Assembly: GCA_900469965.1 (NCBI GenBank) | Contig: UBZP01000019.1 | Location: 1-54,465, forward strand | DNA: 54,465 bases | Source: Hyphomicrobiales bacterium | GTDB taxonomy: Bacteria > Pseudomonadota > Alphaproteobacteria > Rhizobiales > Rhizobiaceae | Direction of reading: 5' to 3' | Part shown: in pieces, positions 8,734 through 29,622 of the stretch | Layout of the letters: every line of letters begins with the position of its first letter | Numbering within the stretch: position 1 is the first letter of the stretch | The notes under the pieces: model-generated | The model's input: the letters and a program-made list of their open reading frames with translations, nothing else | Told to the model about the DNA's origin: nothing | The model's database searches: none | Made by a program: the position numbers and the translations under genes

Positions 8734-8786
8734 CGTGCATCAATTCCCCGATTCTAAGCATTTCACAAATCAACTCGTCTTTCGAT

Positions 8787-8809
8787 AATTGGATCAAATA
8801 GGGCCAATT
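8787..8809. promoter_or_regulatory. LysR-type binding site (AATTGG-N11-CCAATT)
   Basis: A perfect 6+6 inverted repeat with an 11-base centre lies between the divergent lysR and prpF-like genes. It contains the T-N11-A motif bound by LysR-type regulators and is 38 bases upstream of the prpF-like start. Confidence 0.65.
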
Positions 8810-8847
8810 GATACGGCGATGACATAATTCCGGTGGAAGCACAAGCG

Positions 8848-9930
8848 ATGAATGATCTAGTGGCAATTCCTTGCGTTCTGATGAGAGGCGGCACCTCAAA
8901 GGGCCCCTTCTTCCTGGCGAACGATCTTCCTGCGGCTGCCGGCCCGCGCGATCAGATCCTGCTGTCTGTCATGGGATCGGGGCATCCGCTGCAGATCGAC
9001 GGCATCGGTGGCGGGAACCCGGTGACAAGCAAGGTGGCCATCGTCGGACCTCCGAGCGTTGCTGGCGCGGACGTGGACTATCTTTTTGCGCAGGTTCGGG
9101 TCGACCAACAGATTGTCGACACCTCCCCGAACTGCGGCAATATGCTCGCTGCTGTCGGACCATTCGCGATCGAAGCCGGACTTGTCCCGGTCCGCGGAGA
9201 AACGACGGTCGTCCGGATTTTCAACGTCAACACGAGCAAGTTGATCGAGGCCGAGGTTCCCACTCCGAACGGCAGCGTCTCATATCTCGGCGACGCTGCA
9301 ATTGACGGTGTACCAGGCGCTGCAGCGCCGATCGCCCTGACCTTCCTGGACGCGGCGGGGGCTCGTACCGGACAGCTCTTTCCCACCGGCAGGACGATCG
9401 ACTTGATCGACGGTGTGGCCGTCACCTGCATCGACTGTGCAATGCCGATGATGCTGATCGAGGCAGGCTCGATCGGCGCGAGTGGCTTCGAATCGGCGGC
9501 TGAACTCAATGCCGATACGGACATGCTGCGACGGCTGGAAAGGCTGCGCATCGCTGCCGGCGAACGGATGGGCCTCGGCGACGTGCGCAATCAGGTGACG
9601 CCGAAGCCGGTCCTTGTTTCCCGGCCAAGGTCCGGAGGGGACATCAACGTACGCTATTTCATGCCGCATGAGTGCCACCCCTCGCTTGCGACCACAGGGG
9701 CCGTGGGAATCGCTACAGCCTGTATCAGCCACGACACGGTCGCCTCAAGGCTGATCGGCGGGCGTGTCCCTCCGATCGTGCTTTCCATCGAGCACCCGAG
9801 CGGCCATCTGGACGTCAAGCTGTATGAAAGGGACGGCAAGATCGTCGCCGGAATTCTTCGCACCGCCCGCCGGCTGTTCGAAGGACTTGTTTTCGCAAAA
9901 CCTGTCACGCAACTGGGTTGCGCGGCATAA
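8848..9930 (+). CDS. PrpF-family isomerase, 4-oxalomesaconate tautomerase-like
   Basis: This 360-residue enzyme belongs to the PrpF/4-oxalomesaconate tautomerase (GalD-like) branch of the diaminopimelate-epimerase fold. It opens with the family hallmark R-G-G-T-S-K-G near residue 13, has D-G-I-G-G-G-N-P near 51, a D-T-S-P-N-C-G-N catalytic-cysteine segment (Cys96), and H-E-C-H-P-S-L-A-T-T-G-A in the second half. Members shift double bonds in unsaturated tricarboxylic or dicarboxylic intermediates, for example in gallate/protocatechuate 4,5-cleavage or methylcitrate pathways. I start at the ATG at 8848; a GTG at 8833 is in frame but lacks a ribosome site. Linkage to the ABC importer suggests a carboxylate or aromatic-acid substrate. 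No ring-cleavage genes are nearby. Confidence 0.75.
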   Translation: MNDLVAIPCVLMRGGTSKGPFFLANDLPAAAGPRDQILLSVMGSGHPLQIDGIGGGNPVTSKVAIVGPPSVAGADVDYLFAQVRVDQQIVDTSPNCGNMLAAVGPFAIEAGLVPVRGETTVVRIFNVNTSKLIEAEVPTPNGSVSYLGDAAIDGVPGAAAPIALTFLDAAGARTGQLFPTGRTIDLIDGVAVTCIDCAMPMMLIEAGSIGASGFESAAELNADTDMLRRLERLRIAAGERMGLGDVRNQVTPKPVLVSRPRSGGDINVRYFMPHECHPSLATTGAVGIATACISHDTVASRLIGGRVPPIVLSIEHPSGHLDVKLYERDGKIVAGILRTARRLFEGLVFAKPVTQLGCAA

Positions 9931-13012: not shown

Positions 13013-13450
13013 TTACTTCACGTGTCCCACAACTCGAATTGCGTTATCGGAAACCTCAAGAGGAAATCGTTTGCCCGTGCGTTCGATTGCACTGCGTATC
13101 GCATCTATATCTTGAGGCACCCGCTCAGCAGGCACATTATCTGGCCGCTGCCGTTCGACTATTCGGCGGAACTCGACCCATTCAATCTCCACCAAGGGGT
13201 AGACATTTAGGGGCCGAAGGTCGATGTAGGCATGAGGTGGATACAAACCCGGATGGACGAGCGACCACTCTCTGTCTTCACCAATGAATTTGACCGCCAT
13301 TCCCTTTACGTCCACCGAGGACTCTTCGAGAGCCTTGAACAGCGTTCGCCATTTGGTGTTTGACATCAATGAGGCCGCATAGTTTTCCGCCGCAAACTTC
13401 TTCGCCTCCGATCGAAGCGCCATCATATCGACAGGTTGGTTCTTCCGCAT
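13013..13450 (-). CDS. Hypothetical protein, possibly DUF6678/immunity-like
   Basis: This 145-residue protein is not firmly recognised. It contains N-T-K-W-R-T-L-F-K-A-L early, then H-P-G-L-Y-P-P-H-A-Y-I-D-L and V-E-I-E-W-V-E-F. This pattern reminds me of DUF6678-type proteins, which are sometimes listed near toxin systems. No signal peptide or membrane segment is seen. I use the ATG at 13450; the frame is open to a TTG at 13525. Its neighbours are a transposase remnant and a small membrane protein, so it lies in mobile or scrap DNA. The family suggestion is weak. Confidence 0.5.
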   Translation of the reverse strand: MRKNQPVDMMALRSEAKKFAAENYAASLMSNTKWRTLFKALEESSVDVKGMAVKFIGEDREWSLVHPGLYPPHAYIDLRPLNVYPLVEIEWVEFRRIVERQRPDNVPAERVPQDIDAIRSAIERTGKRFPLEVSDNAIRVVGHVK

Positions 13451-13595
13451 GCCACATCTCCGGGCGCGTCCGATCAAGGCTTCCGTGCTCATCCATTGCA
13501 CACCTGACGAGTGGCATGAAAACAATGAAGGCGCGTCCCAAGCGGTTGCAACCGAGTTTTTTCAACAGTATCGGCCCAAAGCAGCCTTTCAGGAC

Positions 13596-14356: not shown

Positions 14357-15001
14357 ATGTCGATGAAGGTAGTCACACCCGGGGCACGACAGATCGCAGA
14401 CGGTGTCTGGTGGACGGAGCTGCCGCCTCATGAAGTTCGGATGTTCGCGCAGAACGGCAGTTCTCAAGGCGAGATGAGCGTGATCATCTTGAGCAGTTTC
14501 GACTACGACGCCGGTCGATCGACGATGACGTTTAAGCTCGCTGATGCGAAAGCTCTCAATGTCGGCACCACGGAAGCGACCATATTGATCTCAGGGAAGG
14601 CCGAGCCCTTCGAAGCGGCAGGGGCGGAGAACCCGAAGAGTTCTTCCGGCACCCGCGCCCCCGGTGATCTCGAATTTCTGAGCTTGGTCAAGACGCAGTG
14701 CCAAGGATTGCAGAAGGTTGCAGAAGCCCTGTTGGACGGCGTGCGCTCCCGATCTGCTGGCGAACTCAAGAGGGGCAAGTCGCGCAACTTCAGCGAGACG
14801 CCCGATAACTTCTGGTATGTGATTGTTCAGACCCGCATCGAAGAGCTGTCCATCACCGTGCGGGGTCCCGTTGCGCATTTCGATGGCCTGACCAGGCTGG
14901 AGGTGAAAGATGATCGCGGGAATACTCGTTTCAAGGTCAGATCGCTCCGTGACGTGAATGACGCCTTGAAGCTCATCTTCCACGCCAAGCGAAAGCGCTA
15001 G
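14357..15001 (+). CDS. Hypothetical protein next to the island boundary
   Basis: This 214-residue soluble protein is not recognised. It starts at an ATG with a good AGGAG ribosome site. The N-terminal ~75 residues look beta-rich (G-V-W-W-T-E-L-P-P-H-E, then S-V-I-I-L-S-S-F-D-Y-D). A Gly/Ser/Pro linker follows around 80-100, and a C-terminal domain contains R-N-F-S-E-T-P-D-N-F-W-Y-V-I-V-Q-T-R-I-E-E-L. No signal peptide or membrane helix is visible. It ends 90 bases before the left attachment repeat, so it lies just outside the island, possibly as part of an older insertion at the same locus. Confidence 0.6.
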   Translation: MSMKVVTPGARQIADGVWWTELPPHEVRMFAQNGSSQGEMSVIILSSFDYDAGRSTMTFKLADAKALNVGTTEATILISGKAEPFEAAGAENPKSSSGTRAPGDLEFLSLVKTQCQGLQKVAEALLDGVRSRSAGELKRGKSRNFSETPDNFWYVIVQTRIEELSITVRGPVAHFDGLTRLEVKDDRGNTRFKVRSLRDVNDALKLIFHAKRKR

Positions 15002-15090: not shown

Positions 15091-15110
15091 AATTGGCTGG
15101 GGAACCTGGA
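15091..15110 (+). repeat. Left attachment repeat (attL) of the tRNA-Gln island
   Basis: These 20 bases are identical to 29546-29565, which cover the 3' end of the tRNA-Gln gene including the encoded CCA plus three flanking bases. A detached copy of a tRNA 3' end, 115 bases from an integrase start, is the standard signature of site-specific integration. Confidence 0.88.
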
Positions 15111-15224: not shown

Positions 15225-15997
15225 ATGGCAAGGGTTACATATCTCGAAAGGCGTGGTGCAACCTACTATGCAAGGCCTGATGTTCCACTCGATCTGGTCC
15301 CCCACTATGGCACCACGACGCGCAAGAGGGCGCTGCGGACCAAGGATGAGAACGAGGCAAAGAAACGCTCTGGCCCGTGATCGATAGTTGGCGTGCCGAG
15401 TTCGACGAGGTCCGCTCACGCCGCGAACTGACGCCAGACGACAAGGCGGGTGCCGTCTGGCAGCATTATGAGGCGACGCTGGAAAGCTACGATAGCAAAC
15501 AGCGTGCAATGCCGACGCCGGAAGACCAGGACGCAGAATTACAACGCCTGTATCGCCGGATCGATCTCGGCGAGATCACTTCCGACGACTTCTTTGGCAT
15601 GATCAACGCCTATACAGACTTCGAGCTGATGCTGAGAGCGCGGACCGATGACGCCAATCTGCGCAGTCGCCGTCTTACCGCACTGAAGAGGACGCTTGCT
15701 TCTGGCGACAACCGATTGATCGCGCCGGTTGTGCACGATTTCGTCGCCGAGCATAGGCTTCTGGTCGATGTAAGTTCGGATGAGTATCGTGAGCTTTGCT
15801 CGCTGATGACGCGTGCTGAGATCGAGGGGCTCCAGCGCACCCTGGAACGTGACGAGGGGGACTTCACCGGAGCTCCAAAGGATCCGATCGTCAGGCCGGC
15901 TCAGCAGATATGGAAGAGGAGGCGGCTTAGGCCGCCTTCCACGGCTCCACTCGCATCCGTTCAATTGGACGGCCCTATCCAGAAGCGGGGCCATTAG
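15225..15997 (+). pseudogene. Broken tyrosine-type integrase (N-terminal DUF6538-like part only)
   Basis: The ATG at 15225 opens a frame matching the N-terminal arm-binding region of rhizobial phage integrases (V-T-Y-L-E-R-R-G-A-T-Y-Y-A-R, then D-V-P-L-D-L-V-P). It stops at 15380. The continuation lies in another frame from about 15371 (W-P-V-I-D-S-W-R-A-E-F), as if one base had been lost. This second part runs to 15997 through a helical region but never reaches a catalytic R-H-R-Y domain, so the gene is both frameshifted and C-terminally truncated. It lies beside attL and presumably catalysed the original insertion. Confidence 0.8.
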
Positions 15998-16069: not shown

Positions 16070-16942
16070 TTATTGCCCTGACAAGGCTGCAACGTTCTTG
16101 GGTCTTCGGATGGCTCGGCTAATCCAAGAGGCCACCGTAGTCTTCTGACCGGAGCCAACACGATCCTCCCGCTCGGCGATGCCTTCAGACGATCTTGCGA
16201 ACACTCGCTCAACCTCTTCCCGAAGGTTCTCCGGAGACAGGAAAGTCAGATCTACTATCTGGTTCCGCAACCTCAGGAGCTTGGTGGCGCGCCGCATGAT
16301 ATCTTCCATCCGTCCTCGCCCAATCCGCTCAGCGGTATCGACCCATCCCTGCGCGATTGCCCTTGCGAGCTGGGGATGGGATGCGATGGAAGCGCGCTCG
16401 AAGATCTGAACCATCGCATCCTCACTTAGGCTTTCGAGCAGATGCCATCGTTCCTCGCGTGCGGCCTCGCCCAGATCAAGGGTACGGCCGCGGATCCACA
16501 GTCTCTGGAAGGTGTTGCGGACGCCACCTGCGAAGCGGCCATGTTGTCTCGCTGAGTAACGCCACACGACAATCTCCTGGAGCACGATGCATGACAGGAA
16601 GGCCCACGTGTCATCACGCAGAAATTCCGGAGAGTGCATTTGCTGATGCGATGCAAGCCACTTCGCTGCTGCGACGTCGAACCCAGCCTTCTGCCTGTCC
16701 GATGCTGGAGTTGGAAATCCATGCTGCCCTGCAATCGCTATCAGCTGCACGCGGATTTCGTCGACCAGTTCGGGTGACAGGGAGCCGCCGCTCGCGGCAC
16801 ACCAGATCCACGCCTCATACTCGCTGCGGCGTCTTTCCAAATCCATCAGCTCGGAATGTTCTTCGTCAAGCTGATCGAGATCATCCAGGCAGCGCGTGAC
16901 CCCGACATCATTCAGCCGAGGGATTAGTCTCACGTTGCTCAT
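16070..16942 (-). CDS. DUF6339-like protein, last gene of the defence operon
   Basis: This 290-residue protein resembles DUF6339 members that accompany Z1/PD-(D/E)XK/GHKL gene sets. The shared core is D-D-T-W-A-F-L-S-C-I-V-L-Q-E-I-V-V-W-R-Y followed by F-A-G-G-V-R-N-T-F-Q-R-L-W-I-R-G-R. No enzymatic motif, signal or membrane helix is apparent. The protein is mostly helical, with many Arg/Glu pairs. The ATG at 16942 overlaps the preceding stop in an ATGA, so translation is coupled. Its function is unknown; conserved association suggests a structural or specificity subunit. Assignment rests on remembered motif similarity. Confidence 0.68.
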   Translation of the reverse strand: MSNVRLIPRLNDVGVTRCLDDLDQLDEEHSELMDLERRRSEYEAWIWCAASGGSLSPELVDEIRVQLIAIAGQHGFPTPASDRQKAGFDVAAAKWLASHQQMHSPEFLRDDTWAFLSCIVLQEIVVWRYSARQHGRFAGGVRNTFQRLWIRGRTLDLGEAAREERWHLLESLSEDAMVQIFERASIASHPQLARAIAQGWVDTAERIGRGRMEDIMRRATKLLRLRNQIVDLTFLSPENLREEVERVFARSSEGIAEREDRVGSGQKTTVASWISRAIRRPKNVAALSGQ

Positions 16943-17853
16943 TCCAGATCTCCCACCTCTGCCGCGGCATGGATACCAGCATGAAAATGACCGGGCAGAT
17001 TCCGCTGCATGTTTTGTATCTCGGACAAACCGCGCCGGGGGAAGGCAAGTTCCATCCAAGCGGAGATCTGAGCGCCCACCGAGCCCTCCTCGCATTCGCG
17101 GAGTTGCTCCGCGGAATCGTTGGTGTCCAACGCAGCAGTGATCATCTGAACCATGACGTCGCCTAGGATAGCCTGCAGGGTTACGTCGTCTCCATCAACG
17201 ACGCGCTGCGCAAGTTCCCGGTGATCGGAGTTGACATACAGGCGGATCGATCCGCCGAAATCCGCAGCCAGACCACCGGGCTTCCAGGCGAGATACCAAG
17301 GCGCCGTCATATGTCCATGGTTTGGGAATGTCTCCGTGAAGGAGACTACCTCAATGGGGAAACGATTCTCGCCTCCATCCTCAAGTTCGACTGATATCTC
17401 TTCAGACCAGAGGCGAGAGCCGACACAGTTCGGGGATAGTATCGAGCCGCTGGCTGGCGCTGCTGCGAGGAGCACCTCGATCCGGGCATGAACTCGGCCG
17501 GAAAGCATGTTGCCCGGAATGATAGCACGCATCTCGATCAGTTGCTCTGCTTCCGCATCGAGAATGTAGGAGCTTATCCGCTTGGTCGTTCTGGGGAAGC
17601 GGCCTCGGCCTGTGCCGACGTTGAGGGTAACTGCGAGCTTGAGTTCCTGTTCTGGGATCGCGAGCACCTCCGAGGCGGCTCGCATATCGATCGAGAGGGA
17701 GCTCTGTAGCTCCAGGTCGGTTGCGTAGTCCCATCCGTCGAGCATGGGCTTGATTGGCAGGAGCGGAGCGCCAGCTTGGCCGACTATCCAGGGTCCGAGT
17801 GTTACGACTTCGTTCGGAAGAGTGAGAAACGGAAGGGCAAACGTGGCGGTCAC
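16939..17853 (-). CDS. Unknown component of the defence operon
   Basis: This 304-residue protein has no recognised domain. It begins at an ATG overlapping the GHKL gene's stop by four bases (ATGA) and overlaps the DUF6339-like start in the same way, so it is embedded in the operon and presumably works with its neighbours. The first half looks beta-rich with hydrophobic strands; the second contains H-M-T-A-P-W-Y-L-A-W-K-P-G-G and a helical tail. No nuclease, ATPase or membrane signature is visible. It could be a DNA-binding or scaffold subunit; that is a guess. Confidence 0.65.
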   Translation of the reverse strand: MTATFALPFLTLPNEVVTLGPWIVGQAGAPLLPIKPMLDGWDYATDLELQSSLSIDMRAASEVLAIPEQELKLAVTLNVGTGRGRFPRTTKRISSYILDAEAEQLIEMRAIIPGNMLSGRVHARIEVLLAAAPASGSILSPNCVGSRLWSEEISVELEDGGENRFPIEVVSFTETFPNHGHMTAPWYLAWKPGGLAADFGGSIRLYVNSDHRELAQRVVDGDDVTLQAILGDVMVQMITAALDTNDSAEQLRECEEGSVGAQISAWMELAFPRRGLSEIQNMQRNLPGHFHAGIHAAAEVGDLE

Positions 17854-19694
17854 GCAGCATCTCCCTCGTCAAAAGTGAATCGAATGCCCACAGCGGCATC
17901 GTCCGGCACGGTAACCTGACAGGAGATCAGGCCTTGGGTGCTCCCGATCCTCATCCCTTCAGTGGCGACAACCCTATCTCCGAGGGAAATGGAAATGAGA
18001 CCGACCTTGATGTCGTCTGGCAGGTCGTCTGCCGAGGCAAAGGAACCGTCTACAACAAGATGAGGAGTGGCGTTCAGAACGAGGTTGGGACGGCTGCCAT
18101 CGTTCTTGAGCTCTGCCTCGAACCTTGCCACCCGTTGCCCGTCGCAATAGTCCAGACCTGCGAAGCGAGGTGCGGAAATGGCGATCTTCTTGCGACTCCC
18201 GGAGCCCCGGGGAGAAGCGGGTCGACCAGGACCCTTCCCGGAGCTGTTGGACAGAATTCTGCCCAGCTTGGCGGCTGTTCTGGCAACCGACGGCCCACGG
18301 CCCTCGCTCATTCCAAATGCCGCCTTGGGCTGCACATAAGTGGCCGCGTGATGTCTGAGCTCTCGGAGTGCCACGTTCACGTAGGTCTTGGCTCGCCCCT
18401 TGGGCAGCATGTCGGGGATCCAGTCATCGTGAGCTGGCGGTTCCGTGACAGCGAACGCTCTCTCGATCTCGTCCTCATTCGAGCAGATGAACACGCCGCC
18501 CCACTCGAAGCGCGGATCTGCAAATGGCTCCCCCGGGAGATATCTGACGACCAGTTCGACGGGGCGCATCAATGCGATGGAGTGCGCTTGCTCGCGCATC
18601 GGACTTCCCTCACGCAACGCCATGAAATTTCGTGCAGCACGCATGCCTCTGACGATCGACAGTCTGCCTAGCTCTGCGATCGGCTTGGCGCTGCGGATTG
18701 TCGTAACCTTCCCGTCTTCATTGTCGCGCACGTTCTTGAGCGCCGCGGCGTAAAGGTCCAGCGGTGGATACTGTTCGGGCGCGGGCACTTCTATCTCTTC
18801 GCCTTCGTACTCTATGTGGACGACGATCTTCCGCTCCTCAGGCGTAAAGCCGCACATCCTTGGCCAGAAGTTCCAGAGGACCGTTTCCAAAAGCTCGGCG
18901 CGCAGATCGTCACCTCGATCGATATGCGGAGCCATGATCGCGATCGTGGTGCCCGTTCGGCTTTCGTCACGTGGTGGAAGCCCGAGGAGGTCCGCGAGCT
19001 GTGCCGCTTCTTCACCCTCCAGTGGATCGACACCGCCCTCGGCGTCGTCGCGACCCCACCAATGGCGCCCTGTGAAACGGCGACGCTCTCCGCCCTCGAC
19101 CGCTTCAAACGCGTCAGCAAGGTGGCAGCCCATGACTCGCCGGACCGGGATCCCTCCGCAGGTGGTCTGGGTATCGGCGATGATCGTGGAAGCACGGCTC
19201 AGTGCATAGAGGGAGGTCTTGCCGTATCCATACGTTCCACCACCGTGATGCGTGTCGCGTGCGGCGCCTATGTTTCGTAGAAAGTTGACGAAGTCGAGCC
19301 TCTCATCACCTGCGATGATATCTGCCCGGGTTGGACCGGCAAGTCCTCTTGTATTGAAATCAGCGATCTCCAGCAGGGCGACCTGTTCCTCCTTGAGAGT
19401 GCTTCGCAAGCTCGCGCTATCTTCCTCTTCCGAGGAATCAGCCTGTTGGTGAGGGAGGTCCTGGAAAACGAGATTTCGCAGGCGCTGAAGGTTTTCACCT
19501 TCCAGCGTCCGGTAGCGCAGCAGGATCTCGACCGGATTGCCCGTTGGCGCCGCGTCGATGGAATTCTGTAGAGCCTCTCGGATCACTGTCTGCAAGAGGC
19601 CGAGCGCCGGACGCCCCAAAAGCCGTCGAAAGCCCTCTCCGGCTATGTTGCCAGTACGAGCGAACCTCTCGCTGTGCAGCTTGAGCGGGATCAT
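17850..19694 (-). CDS. GHKL (MORC/Hsp90-like) ATPase of the defence operon
   Basis: This 614-residue ATP-binding protein has the GHKL fold. The N-box is R-E-A-L-Q-N-S-I-D-A (Glu40, Asn44), the second motif A-D-F-N-T-R-G-L (Asp112) is a degenerate D-x-G-x-G, and the lid is G-G-G-T-Y-G-Y-G-K-T (151-160). A Gly/Pro/Ser/Lys-rich linker around residues 490-520 separates it from a beta-rich C-terminal domain. In MutL, MORC and Hsp90 this fold dimerises on ATP and clamps DNA or protein. Comparative genomics has placed MORC-like GHKL ATPases in restriction-modification-like gene sets with Z1 and nuclease-fold partners, as here. I start at the ATG at 19694, which overlaps the upstream stop. The frame is open to 19898, but that part is shadow. 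Confidence 0.8.
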   Translation of the reverse strand: MIPLKLHSERFARTGNIAGEGFRRLLGRPALGLLQTVIREALQNSIDAAPTGNPVEILLRYRTLEGENLQRLRNLVFQDLPHQQADSSEEEDSASLRSTLKEEQVALLEIADFNTRGLAGPTRADIIAGDERLDFVNFLRNIGAARDTHHGGGTYGYGKTSLYALSRASTIIADTQTTCGGIPVRRVMGCHLADAFEAVEGGERRRFTGRHWWGRDDAEGGVDPLEGEEAAQLADLLGLPPRDESRTGTTIAIMAPHIDRGDDLRAELLETVLWNFWPRMCGFTPEERKIVVHIEYEGEEIEVPAPEQYPPLDLYAAALKNVRDNEDGKVTTIRSAKPIAELGRLSIVRGMRAARNFMALREGSPMREQAHSIALMRPVELVVRYLPGEPFADPRFEWGGVFICSNEDEIERAFAVTEPPAHDDWIPDMLPKGRAKTYVNVALRELRHHAATYVQPKAAFGMSEGRGPSVARTAAKLGRILSNSSGKGPGRPASPRGSGSRKKIAISAPRFAGLDYCDGQRVARFEAELKNDGSRPNLVLNATPHLVVDGSFASADDLPDDIKVGLISISLGDRVVATEGMRIGSTQGLISCQVTVPDDAAVGIRFTFDEGDAA

Positions 19695-20695
19695 GCGCAG
19701 AATTCCAGCAAAAGCGCCTCCGCGCCAAATCGGTCCAGAACATACGCGCCGGCCATTGCAAGGTCGATCTCGTAGGTAAGATCCACCACACCCGTGGGCA
19801 GAACATGGCCAGGAAAGGAAGCAGAGGTTATACACGGGAAACCAGCAGACAAAGCGTAGATGTCGAAGCCTGCAAGGGCAAAGCTTATGGTATTCCAACC
19901 TTCGGCATTGGGATCACGACAGCCGAGCTCTGCCAATCGCTCGTCCAGCATGAGCTCGTCTGCACCATGCTCGATGATTGCGCGATGGAGATTGGCTACA
20001 GAGAGAGGACCGTTAGCCACCGGCTCCACTCTCACGTGTGCAAGGTATAATCGGCCACCTAGCGGAGGCAGCAACTGCTCCGGCCCGTGAATGATCACAC
20101 GTGATGCGTCGGAGCGGATTGAGGTCTTGACCTCGATCGCTAAGTCGAGACGACGGAAGTCATGACGCTGGCCTATGGGGCCCGTCCACGCTTCGAGCGC
20201 GGCGGGAAGCTTGGCGGTCAATGTCTCAAGAACCACCAGTTCACCAATCAGGCCGCAAAGTTTGGTGATAGGGACATCGTCTTCAGGCGTGAGGGCGAGA
20301 AGATTTCGGAAATCCTGGATGGTCCCATGAACGGCGGCTTCCGGACCCTCGCCGCTCTCCAGTCGGTTCAGAATCTCCTCTACCAGTTCACTGAATACAC
20401 GAGCCAGCTTGGGGTTCCGGAGCGTGATGTCAATGAAATGCTCGATTTTCCCGGTAGATCTGAAGGAGGAGCGCGTGAGGAGGAGATTGTGTCCGTCGGC
20501 GATCGCGCCGCCACCAGCTGGCCTGCCAACAGGCACAAGAAGCCGCGGCTCGCCGGATGGCCCAATTGCGATCCGGACCTGCCCGTAGCCCGTTGTGACT
20601 GTGGTCGTCCGGCTCGGGACTTCGAGATTCCCATCGCCTCGGCCGGACGCGCGAATTTCAGCCCAGTCCCTCTCAAGTTTTCCGGGTTCACGCAT
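19691..20695 (-). CDS. PD-(D/E)XK-motif protein (DUF4420-like), predicted nuclease
   Basis: This 334-residue protein carries the restriction-endonuclease-fold signature: a Glu in G-E-L-V-V-L-E (151-157), then D184 and E188-V-K190 in R-L-D-L-A-I-E-V-K, followed by a T-S-I-R strand. The metal-binding residues look intact, so it is probably an active nuclease. It starts eight bases before the Z1 gene's stop and its own stop overlaps the GHKL start. In this gene set it is the obvious cutting subunit, perhaps activated through the two ATPases when DNA lacks the host methyl mark. Function is inferred from motif and context. Confidence 0.8.
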   Translation of the reverse strand: MREPGKLERDWAEIRASGRGDGNLEVPSRTTTVTTGYGQVRIAIGPSGEPRLLVPVGRPAGGGAIADGHNLLLTRSSFRSTGKIEHFIDITLRNPKLARVFSELVEEILNRLESGEGPEAAVHGTIQDFRNLLALTPEDDVPITKLCGLIGELVVLETLTAKLPAALEAWTGPIGQRHDFRRLDLAIEVKTSIRSDASRVIIHGPEQLLPPLGGRLYLAHVRVEPVANGPLSVANLHRAIIEHGADELMLDERLAELGCRDPNAEGWNTISFALAGFDIYALSAGFPCITSASFPGHVLPTGVVDLTYEIDLAMAGAYVLDRFGAEALLLEFCA

Positions 20696-23306
20696 CGACG
20701 CCTTCCACTTCCTCGATCTGGTCTTGGCTCTCCTCGGTTTCCTCAAGCGCGGGCGGCTCGATATCGACGGAGAAATAGCCACCCGACCTGTCTTTCTGGC
20801 CGGGGAAGACAATGCCGAAGCCGACCACGTCCGCGACCGCATCGAGTGCAACACGCGACGGGAGCCGATCGCCCTCCACCTCTTGCGCCATGGGGTCGGA
20901 TTTTGCGTCGATCAGGTACAGAAGTAGCAGCGGTATTGACGGTCTGCATGATTTGTAAGTCGTCCAGTCCTCCTTGTCCGGCTTTCGCTCTGCGTCGATG
21001 AGGATGTCCGCCTTGGACATCAGGGCCTTGATATCTGCATACCGCGGCGATGCCTCTCGCAGACGAGACCTTCTCATGGTGGGAACATGGCCAAGTCCGC
21101 CGAGAGGTCTGGCTGATTCCGTACTCGATTTCGTCTGAATGACGGCGACGTTCCAGAGTCGGAGCGTTGCCTCGGTCTCATCAAGATACCGAACCAGGTG
21201 GGGTTTCTTGAGGTCCATGTGTTCATCCGACACCTCGGTGTCAGCCAGGAATCGTCGGACGGTTTGGAAGGGGATTTCCTTGAACAGGAGCCCCCGTTTC
21301 GTTGGTTCCGGCTTTGTCTGAGCCAGCATTGCATCCACCAGCTTCGAGGCTGCGCTCCAGTTCCTCCCCAGAATCTCGCTGTTGAGATGGTCAAAGCGGA
21401 TAGTCTGAACGTGCTTACCGGAAAAGCTCATGCTCGTGCGGAAAGCGTGCTTCATCTTCGCCGCGGACGTAATGGCCATGCCCGGTATCGAGCGAACCTT
21501 CACCGCAAAGTCACGCGGCGTAAGCTTGTTCTCCCGGTAGACTGCGATGTCTTGGCGGATCTCCTCCTCGATAACGGCTAGCGAGCGGAACTTGGAGGCT
21601 AGATCTTCTGTCGTCCAGAGCCGTGGGAGGTCCTCGTATCCGTGACGATAGCCAAACCAGCGCCCCATCTGGAGGAGAGTGTCATACTGTTTTGACGTGC
21701 GGAGGAAGAACGAGACACACAGCCCCTCGAGTGTCAGGCCGCGGGCAAGGACGGTGCCGCCTACCACGATGCAGGTAACCGGTTCCCCTGTATAATCCAG
21801 ACGGAATGCATCATCAGTCTCGCCATTCTCGACCGGATAACAAAGCGCCTCGAGAACTGCAGGAAGGTGAGCGAGCACCACCTCGAAATCTTCGGGGATG
21901 CGGTTTTTGCCTTCAGGCGCGGTTCGGTCTCTTTCACGTTCGAAGACTTTCTTGAGCTTGGCCGTAGGCTCTCCCGTTCCCGCCAGCAGATCGGCCTTCC
22001 TCTCTTCCACCCAGTTCTGAATGAGTTCGGACATGTATTCGTGTTGACGGACATTCGGAGAGGAGTGAACCAGCATCGACATGTGCTCTCGTTCCTGTCC
22101 GCGAGCTCGGCGGATCGCACAGGTTGCCAGAAACCACAGTGTCGCCTCCTCAAGGCTCTGGGTCATTTCGGGATGGAAGGTCTCCTTGTCTTTCGGCGAG
22201 GTTGGCCGCAGACGATCCGGCTCGTCTTGGTGAAGGATGCGGATCATGTCTCGCTCGTCACCATCCGCTTCTGCACTGTCGGTCCCGAAGACCTCGCGCG
22301 CTCCGAAATAGCCGAGCGGTCTATCGAGTGCCGTTATGAAATCGCGAGGGTAGAGGTCGTCGAGATCTTCATCCAGGCCGTTCGGGTAGGGGTTGATGAA
22401 AACGTTGGCGAATGGGGTCGCGGTGTAGCCCACATAGGTCACCGCCGGCAGGGCTGCCAAGATACGCCTTATGGAGGCATTTATCTGGGTCATGTCGTAA
22501 TCGCCGCGTGCCGAATTTACTGATGCCTGATCGCACTCGTCATCAATTAGGAGCACCTTGAGTGCTCGAAGGGTCACAGCGGGCGTTCTGGAAATCGTGC
22601 GTATCAGCTGCTTGAGGCGCCTGCCTTCCTTCTTCATGACTACGAGCTGCGCATGGCCCTCTGTCGGCATCACGAACCCGCCGTTTGGGGGCTGAACAAA
22701 GTCGCCGTTGGGATCACTGGTTGTGTAAAGCTGCCAGAGAGTTCGATGGCGCAGCACATCCTTCTCGAAGCGATCCTGGGTCTGCTTGCGCAGCTTGTTG
22801 GTTACCCCTCCCAGTACGATAATCATGTTGTAGCCGGCATCCACAGCCTTCGCCATGACAGCTGTCATGTTGGCGGTCTTTCCGGACTGAACATATCCGA
22901 CCACTAGTCCCCGGCAGGCAAACTTGTCCCTCGCCGGGTTGCCCAATAGCGAAACAACCTCTGTTGAAGCTCGGTCCAGAGAACTGATGGTTTCGGGCGA
23001 CCAGTTCTTGGTCTTGAGATACTCGTGCATCGCGGACCAATGGTGACTGTTGGCGCCTGGGCCCCTGTACCAATCCTCTGGTGCGTCAACGATCGAGTGT
23101 CGCCGGAGGATCTCGACGTCCTGTATTTCCGCTCGTACTATATCGACGGCAGCCTCAAGATTGGCGATCATTTCCGATGTGAAGGGAGCAGAGATCAGTT
23201 GCTCCATCTCGCGGCGGCACGCTGCTGCAGTTTCTTCCAAGCTGCCATAATTGGCTCGTCTCTGGCGGATCTGGGTGGCGAAATTCTCGACTTGGGGAGA
23301 GGGCAT
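20688..23306 (-). CDS. Z1-domain ATPase/helicase-like protein
   Basis: This 872-residue protein has a P-loop G-Y-V-Q-S-G-K-T (137-144), a Walker B-like L-L-I-D-D-E-C-D-Q (252-260) and a G-Y-T-A-T-P-F-A-N-V motif (293-302), as in superfamily II helicases. Late motifs include V-G-G-T-V-L-A-R-G-L-T-L-E-G and Q-M-G-R-W-F-G-Y-R. Together these match Z1 proteins, a class found with nuclease-fold partners in restriction-like loci. It probably translocates or remodels DNA. I chose the ATG at 23306; a TTG at 23342 is an in-frame alternative and neither has a strong ribosome site. The gene lies 93 bases after the methyltransferase and overlaps the nuclease gene by eight bases. Confidence 0.82.
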   Translation of the reverse strand: MPSPQVENFATQIRQRRANYGSLEETAAACRREMEQLISAPFTSEMIANLEAAVDIVRAEIQDVEILRRHSIVDAPEDWYRGPGANSHHWSAMHEYLKTKNWSPETISSLDRASTEVVSLLGNPARDKFACRGLVVGYVQSGKTANMTAVMAKAVDAGYNMIIVLGGVTNKLRKQTQDRFEKDVLRHRTLWQLYTTSDPNGDFVQPPNGGFVMPTEGHAQLVVMKKEGRRLKQLIRTISRTPAVTLRALKVLLIDDECDQASVNSARGDYDMTQINASIRRILAALPAVTYVGYTATPFANVFINPYPNGLDEDLDDLYPRDFITALDRPLGYFGAREVFGTDSAEADGDERDMIRILHQDEPDRLRPTSPKDKETFHPEMTQSLEEATLWFLATCAIRRARGQEREHMSMLVHSSPNVRQHEYMSELIQNWVEERKADLLAGTGEPTAKLKKVFERERDRTAPEGKNRIPEDFEVVLAHLPAVLEALCYPVENGETDDAFRLDYTGEPVTCIVVGGTVLARGLTLEGLCVSFFLRTSKQYDTLLQMGRWFGYRHGYEDLPRLWTTEDLASKFRSLAVIEEEIRQDIAVYRENKLTPRDFAVKVRSIPGMAITSAAKMKHAFRTSMSFSGKHVQTIRFDHLNSEILGRNWSAASKLVDAMLAQTKPEPTKRGLLFKEIPFQTVRRFLADTEVSDEHMDLKKPHLVRYLDETEATLRLWNVAVIQTKSSTESARPLGGLGHVPTMRRSRLREASPRYADIKALMSKADILIDAERKPDKEDWTTYKSCRPSIPLLLLYLIDAKSDPMAQEVEGDRLPSRVALDAVADVVGFGIVFPGQKDRSGGYFSVDIEPPALEETEESQDQIEEVEGVDA

Positions 23307-23399
23307 TGCAATCTCATAGGTTGGAAGCGATTCGCGCCTCAACTCTAGCCCAGATGAATTTCAAGAAAAGAGCGGGTGAAGAAAATCACCCGGAGATGC

Positions 23400-24953
23400 T
23401 CACTGAGCCTGCGTCAAGGCACACAAGAGCAGGCTGGCAATCTGCCGAGCAAGATATGGCGGCACCGCATTCCCTACCTGGACATACTGCTGCGTGCGAT
23501 TGCCCAGGAAGAAGTAGTCGTCCGGGAACGTCTGCAGCCGAGCTGCCTCACGTACTGTGAGGCTTCGGCACTGTATTGGGTCGGGATGAATGAAGTAGTG
23601 GCCGTCTTTGGAGATGTGGCTGGTGACGGTTGTCGATGCCTCGTTGGCGAGCTGGACGCGGAACCGGTCATTGAAGACGCCGCTGTGCCAATTCCGGTGT
23701 TGCGGGCTGAGCGAGAGCGGGAAGTCGCCGGCCTTGGGGCTGTACGAGCGCACAGCCCCAAATACTGCCGAAAACAGATAGCGCCCGAGATCTGAAGCCA
23801 TATGGCCGCGCGTCTCGTGCTGCGCGATCCCCGTCAGTTCAGGCCGCTCGAGCCAACGGAGGAGTTGGTCGTTGGAGTAGCCATAGTCATCTCCCAGGTG
23901 TGATGCTGCACGAAGCTCAGGACCACGCTCGTTTAGTAGCTCTGCTACCGACGAGAACGCTTCGTGAAGTTTGGTGTCCCCCAGCTCGTCATAGATGCCC
24001 GCGAGCAGTGCCGCGGCCCCTACGACCGCACTGCGCCATGAAGGTTCATCATCACGCCCGCGGCTGATGCCACTGCGAAGTGCCGGCAACGCTCCAATCG
24101 CATCGTGCAGGGTTCGCGTTACCCCCGAAACAGGTATTTCCGCACCGACCGCACGGGAAGCGATGTCGGACCGTATCCCGACAATGATCACCCGGTGGCG
24201 CCGCTGCGGGACCCCGAAATCCTCCGCGCGGACAATGAAGTCCGATGGCTTGAGCGCCTCCTGAAGGGTCGCCGTCCCGTTGGTCAGTCGGATCGCGCGC
24301 AGTTCGTAGTGATGGCCTTTGCCAGTTCCAAGCGACGACAGGTCCTCCATCAGCATCTCGAATACGAGCCGACTTTCGACGGTTGAGGAAAGAATCCCCT
24401 TTACGTTCTCCATGACGAAGGCAGCGGGACGGAGCCTGTCGAGAACTCGAATGTATTCCCTAAACAGGTAATGTCGCTCGTCTGCCTCCGGAACGTACCC
24501 AACCTTGCCCTTAGCCCGCGCGCGTCCAACAAGCGAGTAGGCTTGGCAGGGAGGGCCTCCTATAACGACCGTATCATCGTAGGTCGCCCTCAGCTTCACG
24601 ATCGTTTGATCGATAGCCTCCGCGGCCGCCTCTGTCCCGAGTTCAAGAGCGCGTGCTTCGTCTGTGGCGGCCTGCCATGCTTGGGCGTCCACGGTAGACC
24701 AGTCAGGTTCAGGGCCCAATCCAGCGTGAAACTTCACGAACTGAAGCGGCAAGGATCCATGGCGAGCCCGGTATTCTCTCAGGAACGCACGCAGGGTCAA
24801 CGTCCGGTGAGCGGACGGCTCCTTCTCCACCGAGATGCCGATCTGGAACGGAGAAGGTCCCTCAACAGCTATTGCAGAGAAGCCCTCGCCGAGTCCTCCC
24901 GGGCCAGCAAACAGGTCAACAACTCCGAAAGTGGCAGGCAATTCAGGCTCCAC
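23400..24953 (-). CDS. dcm: DNA (cytosine-5) methyltransferase
   Basis: This 517-residue enzyme makes 5-methylcytosine with SAM. It carries the ordered motifs: I, V-V-D-L-F-A-G-P-G-G-L-G (11-22); IV, G-G-P-P-C-Q-A-Y-S with catalytic Cys136; VI, M-E-N-V-K-G with Glu182; VIII, Q-R-R-H-R-V-I-I-V-G; IX, V-R-E-A-A-R-L-Q-T-F-P-D; and X, Q-V-G-N-A-V-P-P. The target-recognition region lies between VIII and IX, and its specificity cannot be read. The start is a GTG at 24953 without a clear ribosome site, 53 bases from the divergent vsr. It probably protects host DNA from the downstream gene set. The symbol is generic. Confidence 0.9.
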   Translation of the reverse strand: MEPELPATFGVVDLFAGPGGLGEGFSAIAVEGPSPFQIGISVEKEPSAHRTLTLRAFLREYRARHGSLPLQFVKFHAGLGPEPDWSTVDAQAWQAATDEARALELGTEAAAEAIDQTIVKLRATYDDTVVIGGPPCQAYSLVGRARAKGKVGYVPEADERHYLFREYIRVLDRLRPAAFVMENVKGILSSTVESRLVFEMLMEDLSSLGTGKGHHYELRAIRLTNGTATLQEALKPSDFIVRAEDFGVPQRRHRVIIVGIRSDIASRAVGAEIPVSGVTRTLHDAIGALPALRSGISRGRDDEPSWRSAVVGAAALLAGIYDELGDTKLHEAFSSVAELLNERGPELRAASHLGDDYGYSNDQLLRWLERPELTGIAQHETRGHMASDLGRYLFSAVFGAVRSYSPKAGDFPLSLSPQHRNWHSGVFNDRFRVQLANEASTTVTSHISKDGHYFIHPDPIQCRSLTVREAARLQTFPDDYFFLGNRTQQYVQVGNAVPPYLARQIASLLLCALTQAQ

Positions 24954-25006
24954 GAAAAATGCGTAGCCGGTGTATACCAGGTTTTGTGACGAAGACCAGG
25001 TGGCAT

Positions 25007-25489
25007 GTGGCAGACATAGTAGATAAGAAGACTCGTTCGCGCATGATGGCCGGGATCAGAGGGAAGGATACCAAGCCTGAGTTGGTCCTTCGTCGGGCAT
25101 TGCATGCAAGGGGCTTCCGATTCCGGCTGCACGCGAAAGATGTCCCCGGGCGGCCTGATCTTGTATTCTCGAAATATCGAGCGGTAGTTTTCGTTCACGG
25201 TTGCTTCTGGCATCGCCATGAAGGTTGCCGTTTCGCGACAATCCCCTCTGCACGTCCGGAATTTTGGCAGGAGAAGTTTGAAGCCAATCTAGCCAGAGAC
25301 AGCTCAGTCGTGGAAACACTCCTGAACTGCGGTTGGCGAGTTGCCACGGTCTGGGAGTGCGCGCTGCGCAAGCCGGACGCCATCCAGGCAGCAACGGAAT
25401 GCGTCGCCCTCTGGCTTGCATCGGGCGAGAAGCGGCTGGACGTCGGTGAGCAGCAGCTGAGACATCGATCGCATGATGAGGGCAAGTGA
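25007..25489 (+). CDS. vsr: Very short patch repair endonuclease (Vsr)
   Basis: This 160-residue endonuclease nicks next to T:G mismatches left by deamination of 5-methylcytosine. The GTG at 25007 gives the family N-terminus V-A-D-I-V-D-K-K-T-R-S and has AGGTGG just upstream; the frame is open to 24872, but that part is antisense to the methyltransferase. Asp51 in P-G-R-P-D-L-V-F and the zinc/catalytic cluster H64-G-C66-F-W-H69-R-H71-x2-C74 match E. coli Vsr closely, including numbering. Divergence from the m5C methyltransferase is a typical pairing that limits methylation-driven C-to-T mutation. Confidence 0.9.
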   Translation: MADIVDKKTRSRMMAGIRGKDTKPELVLRRALHARGFRFRLHAKDVPGRPDLVFSKYRAVVFVHGCFWHRHEGCRFATIPSARPEFWQEKFEANLARDSSVVETLLNCGWRVATVWECALRKPDAIQAATECVALWLASGEKRLDVGEQQLRHRSHDEGK

Positions 25490-26440: not shown

Positions 26441-27158
26441 TCAATCCCGTCCTGCAAAGCATGACGCTGGGTAGTATAGTTCTAGTCTCTTACGCCCGAA
26501 TTGGTCTGGCAGGTATTTTGCGAGGCGGAACTCGACAATCAGATCTTTGAAGCTACCGGAGATGGCGGCGAGGCCATTGTAACAGCAGAGGGCCACCTCA
26601 TGGCTTGTGAGCTGACTCCTGAGGAGATTTCCATAACGGTACTTCTGAGGTTGAGTCAAAAACTGGGTCCTCCTTGTTTCGGAGAAGCAGAGTATAAAGG
26701 AGACGGTAATACGGAGCGAAAGTGCTCTCATATCGAGAGTGGACGTGCTTGAGGTAGAGCTTCGCAATAGTGTCGGCGGAGACCTCGCCATCTGCCTGAT
26801 GTGCTCGGCCAATCCAGTGTCGCATTTCCGTACTCGCACGTTTGAAGGCCTCAGTTCCTTCCACTCGTTCGCCAGAGTTTCGTTCAGTCGAAGCTCCATC
26901 TTGTAGATGCTCTCTGCTGTATCGAAATTCGACGTCGTTCCGCGCCTCACGGAGGAGGCGGAGAAGTTCGTAGAACGTCTGCTCAAATCGCTGAATGTGT
27001 TGATCCCTCTCAGTTCGAAATATCTGCTCCTGCTGCCGATTAAGGTCGTCCCGTTGCTGTTTCAGGGTGAAAAGAACTGCAATGAACGCGAGGGCGGAAA
27101 ATAGAGCGTTCACGCGCCGAAGGTATCCCCTAATTGGCCGAGTAGTTCGCTCTTCCAT
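26441..27158 (-). pseudogene. Frameshifted abortive-infection (AbiC-like) protein
   Basis: The frame from 27158 starts with a membrane helix (residues 15-33, A-L-F-S-A-L-A-F-I-A-V-L-F-T-L) and a coiled-coil (Q-Q-R-D-D-L-N-R-Q-Q-E-Q), then F-E-Q-T-F-Y-E-L-L-R-L-L, the layout of putative phage abortive infection proteins (putAbiC). It loses sense after about 26670. The next frame supplies the matching C-terminus (Y-R-Y-G-N-L-L-R-S-Q-L-T-S-H-E, then C-Y-N-G-L) down to 26441. One frameshift between roughly 26640 and 26700 therefore disrupts the gene. The intact protein would sit in the inner membrane and act in phage defence. Family assignment is by architecture and motif memory. Confidence 0.65.
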
Positions 27159-27875: not shown

Positions 27876-28325
27876 TCACCTGCTCTGAAGCTCGAACAAC
27901 TGGCGCTGGGCGAGTTCCTGGCGTTCGAGATCCTGGTTCACCAACCCCCAACTCAATGCGACCGCTGTGATAAGGACGGCCATGATACCTGTGACCCCGA
28001 GCTTCCATTTGGCCCGCGCTTTTGCGTCCTTCATACCGTTCAGATCACGGAATGCGATAAGCAAAATCTGTATGGCAAGAACCGACGGAACAATCCAGCC
28101 GAGCAGAAGGATGCAAAACCAAGCTGCCAACCATTGATACCATTCCAGAGAATCTGGGTTAGCAGCCTCCATGCCGGCCTTGGCTCGTAGAACTACGAGT
28201 CCAAATGCAAGCAGCCAGAAAGCTCGGTTGACCATCGCAATGATGTCAGAAAGCGTCTTACCAGCGTCGAAGGCTTCTTTGCCTGTCCCTTTGGTAATAG
28301 CATCGCAATACTTTTCTAGAAACAT
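27876..28325 (-). CDS. Hypothetical membrane protein
   Basis: This 149-residue protein has about three hydrophobic segments (roughly residues 33-47, 66-92 and 110-128) with a charged, Gln-rich C-terminal tail (D-L-E-R-Q-E-L-A-Q-R-Q). The start ATG at 28325 has GGGAG nearby. No family is recognised. It stands between decayed defence genes in the island and may be a small membrane effector or merely unrelated cargo. It appears intact. Confidence 0.55.
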   Translation of the reverse strand: MFLEKYCDAITKGTGKEAFDAGKTLSDIIAMVNRAFWLLAFGLVVLRAKAGMEAANPDSLEWYQWLAAWFCILLLGWIVPSVLAIQILLIAFRDLNGMKDAKARAKWKLGVTGIMAVLITAVALSWGLVNQDLERQELAQRQLFELQSR

Positions 28326-28557: not shown

Positions 28558-29053
28558 GCGCCCGCCTTACGGGGTCGATCAGCCGCCAGGGCAGCGAGAT
28601 CGTTCTGCGCGCCGGTAAGCGAAAAGCACAAACCTTCGTTCGTTGCCGCCGACGTCTCTATCTGAGCAAAACAGGACCTCCCAAGGGTGCGTCTCGTTGA
28701 GAGCCTCAGCGTCGTCTGCCGTAGAGGCCGGTGAGAGCTGTCCTGGCGGAACAAGCGACACGACGCCCGCGCATTCCCCGCCGATCTCAGCAGCCCGAAG
28801 GCGTCACCCGAGGATATGCCGAGCGCTGCGGCCAGACGACGTCTGGCGCGTGCATCAGGCACGCGACCCGAGAAAAGGGCCGGGCGACGCGATCGATGAA
28901 GGATTGTTTCTGCACAGGTAGCGCTTCCGACAAGGCGAGGGGAGCACCGGCGAAGTAGTTGCCGGCATAGGTGAAGGTGAGCGAAGCGTCCTCGTTCTGC
29001 TTGAGTTCGCCTGCCTTTCCGTCTTGGAGAAAGACGTCCAGGACGCGGCTCAT
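28555..29053 (-). pseudogene. hipA: Broken HipA-type toxin kinase (N-terminal part)
   Basis: The ATG at 29053 overlaps the hipB stop as in intact hipBA operons and encodes the HipA N-terminus (V-L-D-V-F-L-Q-D-G-K-A-G-E-L). Reading continues through at least two frame changes: R-R-R-L-A-A-A-L-G-I-S-S-G-D-A-F in a second frame, S-L-V-P-P-G-Q-L in a third, and F-S-L-T-G-A-Q-N-D-L again in the second. The kinase core after S-L-x-G-A-Q is missing altogether. HipA phosphorylates glutamyl-tRNA synthetase or other targets to cause growth arrest; this copy cannot. Confidence 0.75.
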
Positions 29054-29274
29054 GAGGAGGCACCGCGGTTGGTGATGCCCACGGTCGAGCCGAGCGTCTG
29101 CAGGACGGTCAATGCGAGTCCGATCCGGCAGCTTTCCTTGCCACTCTCCAACTCGCGCACGAACCGAACGCCCACGCCTGCGACGCCAGCAAGTTGTTCC
29201 TGAGTGAGTTGCTGCCGATTTCGCTCGGGACGGATCAGCTAGCCGAGTGCTATGCTGTCGGAGACCGTTGCCAT
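29050..29274 (-). pseudogene. hipB: Broken HipB-type antitoxin
   Basis: The frame from the ATG at 29274 encodes a helix-turn-helix antitoxin of about 74 codons (R-Q-Q-L-T-Q-E-Q-L-A-G-V-A-G-V-G-V-R-F-V-R-E-L-E-S-G-K). Its twelfth codon is a TAG (29239-29241), so a full-length product is not made unless translation restarts downstream. The stop overlaps the hipA start (ATGA). Intact HipB would repress the operon through operators upstream and neutralise HipA. Two CGGGACGAT repeats upstream fit such operators. Confidence 0.72.
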
Positions 29275-29289
29275 ATGAATCATCCCCTT

Positions 29290-29348
29290 CGGGACGATTG
29301 AAGCACAAATGTCGGGCAATTGAACGAAAAAGAACCGAACGGGACGAT
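29290..29348. promoter_or_regulatory. Paired CGGGACGAT repeats, likely HipB operators
   Basis: The 9-mer CGGGACGAT, with an AAGCA two bases further on, occurs at 29290-29298 and 29340-29348, 50 bases apart, roughly five helical turns. They lie just upstream of the hipB start. HipB proteins bind repeated operators in this position, so these are likely relics of autoregulation. The rest of the stretch to 29548 shows no gene. Confidence 0.5.
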
Positions 29349-29545: not shown

Positions 29546-29565
29546 AATTGGCTGGGGAACCTGGA
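29546..29565 (+). repeat. Right attachment repeat (attR) in the tRNA-Gln 3' end
   Basis: These 20 bases are identical to 15091-15110. They span three bases beyond the tRNA, the encoded CCA, the 3' acceptor strand and the first part of the T-arm, so crossover regenerates an intact tRNA. Confidence 0.88.
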
Positions 29566-29622
29566 TTCGAACCAAGATTAACGGAGTCAGAGTCCGTCGT
29601 TCTACCATTGAACTATTCCCCA
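29549..29622 (-). tRNA. tRNA-Gln (anticodon CUG)
   Basis: The minus strand folds into a full cloverleaf of 74 bases including an encoded CCA. The acceptor stem pairs TGGGGAA with TTCCCCA, the D-arm is GTTC/GAAC, the anticodon stem ACGGA/TCCGT encloses the loop CTCTGAC (anticodon CUG, reading CAG), and the T-arm CTTGG/CCAGG encloses TTCGAAT. Its 3' end is the insertion site of the adjacent island and remains intact. Confidence 0.95.

Follow-up and report, generated by a model that had tools for sequence, protein, structure and literature searches.

The stretch of DNA analysed here, referred to as the window, comprises positions 1–54,465 of contig UBZP01000019.1 (assembly GCA_900469965.1) from a Hyphomicrobiales bacterium of the family Rhizobiaceae, and at 16070–25489 it carries seven intact open reading frames (ORFs) that probably form a mobile restriction-type system of the paraMORC2–Z1–NRE kind. 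They encode a 5-methylcytosine (m5C) DNA methyltransferase (MTase), the repair endonuclease Vsr, a Z1-domain ATPase, a DUF4420 nuclease, a GHKL ATPase, an unnamed protein that we call p304 and a DUF6339 protein (Table 1). An earlier note, made from the sequence, had placed six of these genes on one strand with vsr divergent and the last five overlapping by 4–8 bases, and the ORFs, with gene starts taken as those supported by relatives, confirm this arrangement and its positions. From Z1 through nuclease, GHKL and p304 to DUF6339 the successive overlaps are 8, 4, 4 and 4 bases; the MTase gene ends 93 bases before the start of Z1, and a 53-bp gap separates it from vsr.

The catalytic motifs are intact, as the same note had held with correct numbering for MTase Cys136, Z1 Lys143, GHKL Asn44 and nuclease Glu188 and Lys190, and they are invariant among the relatives that could be aligned, in sets that contain a few duplicate loci (L032 and L070, and L033 and L120, are apparently the same contigs included twice). 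This holds for P-C, E-N and Q-R-R of the MTase (65/65), K143 and DDE of Z1 (73/73), E40, N44 and D112 of the GHKL protein (79/79) and the E-D-E-K set of the nuclease (75/75). Z1 further contains the Walker A motif GYVQSGKT and the motif DTLLQMGRWFG, while the GHKL protein has GGGTYGYGK and an ExxxH motif at E418/H422. The best PADLOC match of the MTase is DrmMII (7e-82). Neither the GHKL protein nor p304 has a Pfam match above cut-off, and neither Z1 nor the GHKL protein has a significant relative in the PDB by sequence. In PADLOC the GHKL protein matches a single model, the candidate-defence model PDC-M33A (about 140 residues, E 4e-16), a match that may mark a further, related candidate system.

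Table 1 Features of the locus, the flanking repeats and a gene pair found beside related loci
Feature	Position	Strand	Details
vsr, very short patch repair endonuclease	25007..25489	+	160 aa, GTG start; Pfam Vsr E 1e-31; TIGR00632 above cut-off
m5C DNA methyltransferase (MTase)	23400..24953	-	517 aa, GTG start; PF00145 4e-43; TIGR00675 above cut-off
Z1-domain SF2-like ATPase, MzaC-like	20688..23306	-	872 aa; PF10593 1e-69; PADLOC MzaC 4e-92
DUF4420 PD-(D/E)XK nuclease (NRE), MzaD-like	19691..20695	-	334 aa; PF14390 3e-50
GHKL ATPase, paraMORC2 type	17850..19694	-	614 aa; from alignment and motif counts
p304, unnamed core protein	16939..17853	-	304 aa, GTG start; no family above cut-off
DUF6339 protein	16070..16942	-	290 aa; PF19866 1e-6, above cut-off
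20-bp direct repeat of tRNA-Gln 3' end, likely att site	15091..15110	+	mean 0.00 matches in 100 shuffles
Second copy of the 20-bp repeat	29546..29565	+	3' end of tRNA-Gln(CTG) 29549-29622 (-)
Septu-like/HNH-like pair (related loci)	L029 15440-17802; L030 15429-17797; L114 12429-14839; L119 12467-14835; L122 11805-14794

A five-gene core in fixed order

Scanning genome contigs with an alignment of the GHKL protein gave 319 relatives, and the ORFs of the best 80 loci were assigned by iterative profile searches; these 80 are the nearest of the 319 to a proteobacterial query, and co-occurrence within them is conditioned on the GHKL protein through which they were found. Z1, the DUF4420 nuclease, GHKL, p304 and DUF6339 are all present in 75 of the 80, in identical order and strand in each of the 75, and p304 is found in 79. 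By record title, most of the loci come from Proteobacteria, the others from Acidobacteria, Nitrospinota, Rhodothermales, Planctomycetes, Verrucomicrobia, Cyanobacteria, Actinobacteria and Chloroflexi. Among the five incomplete loci, L117 and L130 run up to the contig end, L055 (near a contig start) is without Z1, nuclease and DUF6339, L095 shows no Z1 within the 2.4 kb available before the nuclease, and L114 is without the DUF4420 nuclease. Recurrence of the core in fixed order rules out a chance cluster of seven genes, and the five-gene core is a real unit. The conserved co-occurrence on which the earlier note had staked its reading is thus present; what it had called a seven-gene methylation-linked defence locus stands as a conserved restriction-like locus, but one whose core is five genes, to which the MTase and Vsr are relocatable additions.

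The place of p304 in this core could also be judged independently of GHKL. A p304 profile run over 398 genomes of the phylum, with at most five candidates per genome scored in the rows listed, matched in three (G000, G273 and G301), and because all three matches sit within complete five-gene loci, p304 is a dedicated part of the system and not a passenger. Among plasmids, the tblastn matches of GHKL and those of p304 fall in one and the same set of three records (Rhizobium, Agrobacterium and Synechococcus), with DUF6339 adjoining p304 in all three. A single-sequence p304 search of 199 genomes of the order gave two matches, the second of which (G039:C4:304336-304740, L003) is weak at 20 bits, lies within a 1550-aa open frame and is possibly a distant fold relative.

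The AlphaFold2 model of p304 (mean pLDDT 92.4, pTM 0.69) shows a predicted beta-sandwich followed by C-terminal helices, and the near-invariant residues A6, P8, W22, W41, D42, W149, P166, W186, N208 and F290, being unlike a catalytic set, favour a structural role for the protein. Searches placed p304 in no family above cut-off and returned nothing significant in the PDB by sequence; with the model, five PDB entries, Wzt and other beta-sandwich proteins, matched at E ≤ 0.001, all of them weakly (TM-score by query at most 0.27, identity at most 12%), and matches to viral models were similar. DUF6339 is modelled as almost all-helical (mean pLDDT 91.4) with no PDB match at E ≤ 0.001, and its R128, R151, R183 and R217 are invariant in 61 sequences.

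Directly after DUF6339, five loci carry a Septu-like ATPase gene with one for an HNH-like protein (Table 1); the former was called by PADLOC (PDC-M01A/PtuA, tested on L029) and the latter by a Pfam match below cut-off (L029 and L114). Since three of these five loci (the Rhizobium plasmid locus L029, the Agrobacterium plasmid locus L030, and L114) are without the DUF4420 nuclease, the pair suggests a replacement of the nuclease module, in one clade. The Rhizobium plasmid also has the Gabija genes GajA and GajB directly upstream of Z1 (L029 6525-9183), an arrangement that is similar by annotation in the Agrobacterium plasmid, and both have an EcoRII-like cluster with dcm and vsr about 9 kb downstream.

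The MTase–Vsr cassette and the question of specificity

An MTase lies within the available stretch in 69 of the 75 five-gene loci, and MTase together with Vsr in 62, although some of the MTases counted may be parts of other systems; for L029 and L030, which are outside the 80, the MTase lies in the EcoRII-like cluster. The cassette lies on the upstream side of the core in some loci and on the downstream side in others, in both orientations, and its placement changes at least 23 times (62 loci) on a FastTree core tree of 65 loci. Its MTases are short and distant in 12 of 58 loci, with at least 10 long/short changes on the same tree. Loci at ≥95% GHKL identity were collapsed for the tree, the identity correlations, the similar-core comparison, the segment scans and part of the long-MTase analysis; the active-site counts, the p304 residue conservation, the MTase clustering and the other part of the long-MTase analysis are on uncollapsed sets.

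In the 50 loci where all seven proteins are present, out of 79 that have GHKL and p304, pairwise identities of the five core proteins correlate closely with one another (rho 0.73–0.89) and those of MTase and Vsr correlate at rho 0.55, whereas MTase or Vsr against any core protein gives rho 0.16–0.23 (Mantel p 0.003–0.049). Long MTases taken alone behave in the same way (rho 0.16–0.23 against the core, 0.51 against Vsr). In partial Mantel tests, with each core protein given the other four, no single one follows the MTase, the MTase recognition region or Vsr (15 tests, p from 0.095 for the nuclease to 0.86). From these comparisons the MTase and Vsr appear to form a relocatable, exchangeable cassette whose evolution is largely separate from that of the core, a decoupling that is strong but incomplete.

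This decoupling and the variable placement of the cassette, together with the Septu-like/HNH-like pair that follows the core in L029, L030, L114, L119 and L122, are also what might be seen if the locus were an abortive-infection or anti-plasmid system, triggered by stress or invasion, whose core would sense DNA structure or ends and have the MTase and Vsr as a mere frequent neighbour. However, an MTase in 69 of 75 loci is frequent for a chance neighbour, and the same link appears in the available part of a 2008 neighbourhood analysis (PMC2292703), so that we regard such a system as improbable.

A stronger contender is site-specific restriction, in which a core protein reads the sequence of the MTase, and the MTases share a target or co-adapt while the cassettes remain exchangeable, as in the CglI system. 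In CglI an m5C MTase is coupled at a single site with a Z1 ATPase and a nuclease (PMC4267653, available part). In the loci studied here, 53 of 65 MTases group together at the loosest cut of the recognition region, and the raw correlations between core and MTase, weak as they are, exceed permutation. Among 93 core segments compared with the MTase recognition region, the association is weak but in excess (best rho 0.29; 7/93 at the permutation floor), strongest in nuclease residues 151–175, near the active site, and DUF6339 residues 126–225, with DUF6339 the most consistent; permutation tests of this kind leave shared ancestry in. However, the signal is diffuse, comes mostly from closer pairs and declines once loci are merged at 70% GHKL identity, leaving 0/93 segments at p<0.01 with all MTases (n=35) and 4/93 with long MTases only (n=30).

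The short, distant MTases and their repeated changes of type also speak against a core that reads the MTase's site, as does the hypervariability of residues 303–362 in the long MTases, a TRD-like region with a mean pairwise identity of 0.12–0.23. When loci with similar cores are compared, identity in this region is 0.57 of the average over the MTase. The lowest segments of the core proteins stay closer to the averages of their proteins (GHKL C-terminus 0.68, Z1 0.77, the others 0.81–0.86), although the GHKL C-terminus and Z1 426–475 are variable. The clearest single case is L083 and L093, whose cores are 70–84% identical with no 40-residue window below 50%, while their MTases are 19% and their Vsr proteins 42% identical; the L083 MTase (8251–9815) consists of two overlapping ORFs, possibly from a frameshift or sequencing error, and may be broken. 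Low windows also occur in the core proteins of more distant pairs, as in L065–L063 (Z1 0.20, DUF6339 0.18). Taken together, we consider site-specific restriction a real possibility that is nonetheless open to considerable doubt.

Because cores stay similar while MTases diverge, and no swapped core domain is visible, three readings are available: a common target for the diverged MTases, a core that ignores the MTase's target, or a core that reads that target via small changes. It is possible, though somewhat unlikely, that the core has no specificity subunit at all and would be turned off by 5-methylcytosine generally, or by a feature that whichever MTase is present could provide, in which case it would not be sequence-triggered and its nuclease module would be replaceable. 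This suggestion is drawn from the modularity data, and the segment associations make it less probable and site-specific restriction more probable. Should the core contain a specificity element after all, the best present candidate is DUF6339.

Known systems and a possible mechanism

The earlier note mentioned a comparative-genomic prediction for similar gene sets; the locus belongs to the 2008 class of Iyer, Abhiman and Aravind, who predicted that a MORC or paraMORC ATPase, a Z1-type SFII helicase, an RE-fold nuclease, a cytosine methylase and Vsr together form restriction-modification systems, and saw in the bacterial ATPases the source of eukaryotic MORC chromatin proteins (PMC2292703; this and the sources below are cited for the parts available). 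The GHKL protein of the window has the ATP-binding motifs and ExxxH of paraMORC2, the latter in 79/79 aligned window-type proteins, and the MORC motif GhXhhpXXRhl, as transcribed for the search, is absent from all five window-type proteins scanned (0/5); its placement relative to S5 is by sequence only. The motif DThhQXuRhFG corresponds to DTLLQMGRWFG in Z1, and the E-D-ExK nuclease set, methylase and Vsr are likewise present, with the nuclease fold assigned in the same way. The MORC motif does occur in the GHKL protein of five Z1 loci without p304 (L036, L045, L038, L049 and L051), in genomes that have AIPR beside Z1 in the first three cases and no AIPR in the last two. By the 2008 criteria these five count as MORC systems and the window locus as a paraMORC2 system. 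Differences from the 2008 account are that its available text does not describe p304 or DUF6339 (Figure 2 has unnamed domains X1–X3), and that it has paraMORC2 as mostly cyanobacterial and Gram-positive, whereas our 80 loci are mostly proteobacterial, yet are also the nearest to a proteobacterial query.

Another close system is Mza, which was reportedly described by Gao et al. in 2020. The window resembles it in having an MzaC-like Z1 beside an MzaD-like nuclease, often with MTase and Vsr nearby, but its GHKL protein has no MzaB match in PADLOC and AIPR (MzaE) is absent from its genome. Identity with Mza was rejected, as Z1 scores 366.7 against an NCBIfam equivalog cut-off of 1500 bits, the nuclease 50.4 against 420, and AIPR is missing; the AIPR-type control locus L036, with its MORC-motif GHKL, matches MzaB, MzaC, MzaD and MzaE strongly. 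Across the 398 phylum genomes Z1 occurs in 26, with DUF4420 within 2.5 kb in 22 of them; AIPR is encoded by 15 of these 26 genomes and lies no more than about 4 kb from Z1 in 13 (in G105 the two are on different contigs); the three p304-type genomes all lack it. Mza is a sister system of the window locus.

CglI and NgoAVII share an m5C MTase and a Z1 ATPase (DEAD-Z1, required for cleavage) with the window; in CglI, ATP is hydrolysed on DNA with the unmethylated site only in complex with the nuclease subunit, the Z1 domains serve dimerisation, and translocation has been proposed ahead of cleavage (PMC4267653, PMC5737866). Their nuclease is of the PLD-B3 type, whereas no PLD or B3 family matches the seven window proteins, and the available parts of the same papers describe no GHKL, p304 or DUF6339 component. 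As a control, the Z1 family was matched in the genome of Corynebacterium glutamicum. DISARM, whose helicase core is repressed by methylation without dependence on a given sequence (PMC9142583), shares a DrmMII-like m5C MTase, but no DrmA or DrmB (DUF1998) is among the matches listed for the seven proteins (for the MTase, the best 25 of 59). In the paraMORC3-type Shedu protein VcSduA a GHKL ATPase and a PD-(D/E)XK nuclease stop phage, and mutating either abolishes protection (PMC12137116); VcSduA is a single fused protein with DUF4263 and no Z1 or methylase, and DUF4263 is found in none of the seven window proteins. In the literature searched, with most subscription journals and all bioRxiv preprints outside its scope, no experimental study of a paraMORC2 system was found, DUF6339 and two of the Pfam accessions appear in no paper, and DUF4420 is named in one. 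The two undescribed core subunits and the evidence that the cassette evolves largely independently are new here.

Combining the precedents of CglI, VcSduA and DISARM, we hypothesize that the locus works as follows. The MTase would mark host DNA with 5-methylcytosine. Vsr repairs T:G mismatches that arise from 5-methylcytosine deamination, and here would mend those made from the MTase's mark. Z1, an SF2-type motor, would load on unmarked foreign DNA of phage or plasmid and move by ATP hydrolysis, as proposed for CglI; the paraMORC2 GHKL protein would close as an ATP-gated dimer and relay a signal to the DUF4420 PD-(D/E)XK nuclease, which would cut. In such a physical complex p304 and DUF6339, as adaptors or as subunits that bind DNA, may keep the assembly together, and methylation may possibly repress the core, as it does in DISARM. 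The earlier note knew of no defined mechanism, and although that stands for the locus as a whole, its parts have the precedents named above. Its proposal of action against unmarked DNA is retained in this scheme, but cutting at the MTase's own site is not required, given the decoupled cassette.

Several observations weigh against reading the locus as a paraMORC2–Z1–NRE restriction system. The GHKL protein was found in none of the phages or viral contigs searched, leaving it without a phage-borne counterpart. L029, L030 and L114 have no DUF4420 nuclease beside the core, and in L122 no MTase was detected within about 9 kb on either side, although its genome has others. If the nuclease has to recognise the site of the MTase, closer co-evolution of MTase and core would be expected than the weak one observed. 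The models of p304 and DUF6339 point to no clear fold partner that would back an adaptor role, and we know of no experiment on any member of this locus type.

The restriction system so described is more ordinary in kind than the earlier note held and more interesting in its modularity. In the cited literature only a fused Shedu protein of paraMORC3 type is reported as tested (PMC12137116); here a compact paraMORC2 core, with two dedicated subunits without a described function, extends from Proteobacteria to Cyanobacteria and Chloroflexi, and its recurrence in very different bacteria makes the 2008 prediction directly testable. It also raises the question of how a machine that keeps its core while changing its methyltransferase discriminates self from non-self, for which DISARM, with methylation sensing free of a given sequence, is the one precedent in the cited literature (PMC9142583). 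If the core is indeed free of specificity, MTase–Vsr cassettes of different specificity should be freely swappable.

A tRNA-linked genomic island

The locus lies in low-GC DNA adjoining tRNA-Gln, between two copies of a 20-bp repeat of the 3' end of the tRNA gene (Table 1). One block of the alignment to the nearest relative, L052, starts at 15092. Among four same-genus stretches compared around the tRNA gene, three matched the tRNA side only; in the fourth (G572, L147), window positions 7685 and 29548 correspond to points about 0.5 kb apart, an empty site. Relative to that genome about 21.9 kb is thus inserted at 7685–29548, and because a copy of the tRNA-end repeat lies inside this interval the insertion probably consists of two elements in tandem. 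A GHKL match occurs in 6 of 199 genomes of the family and is strong in two, the window's own genome counted. The few family genomes, the att repeats and the empty site are the grounds for regarding the system as mobile and sporadic.

This distribution, with the tRNA island and the plasmid copies, is unlike that of housekeeping repair genes and makes it highly improbable that the locus has a mismatch-repair-like or chromosome-maintenance role instead of defence. Such a role would draw on the resemblance to MutL and Vsr, as GHKL and Vsr proteins both have repair kin, and the available part of the 2008 paper raises a non-restriction role for stand-alone paraMORC3 proteins (PMC2292703).

No match to the phage-integrase family (PF00589) was found on the contig, and Pfam gives no family at E 0.01 for the ORFs at 14357–15001, 15377–15997, 26598–27158 and 27876–28325. 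A DUF6678 protein (13016–13525, minus strand) is encoded in the left part of the insertion, and at the island's end the ORF at 28787–29308 contains a stretch resembling the N-terminus of HipA, which we take to be, possibly, the remnant of a toxin–antitoxin system.

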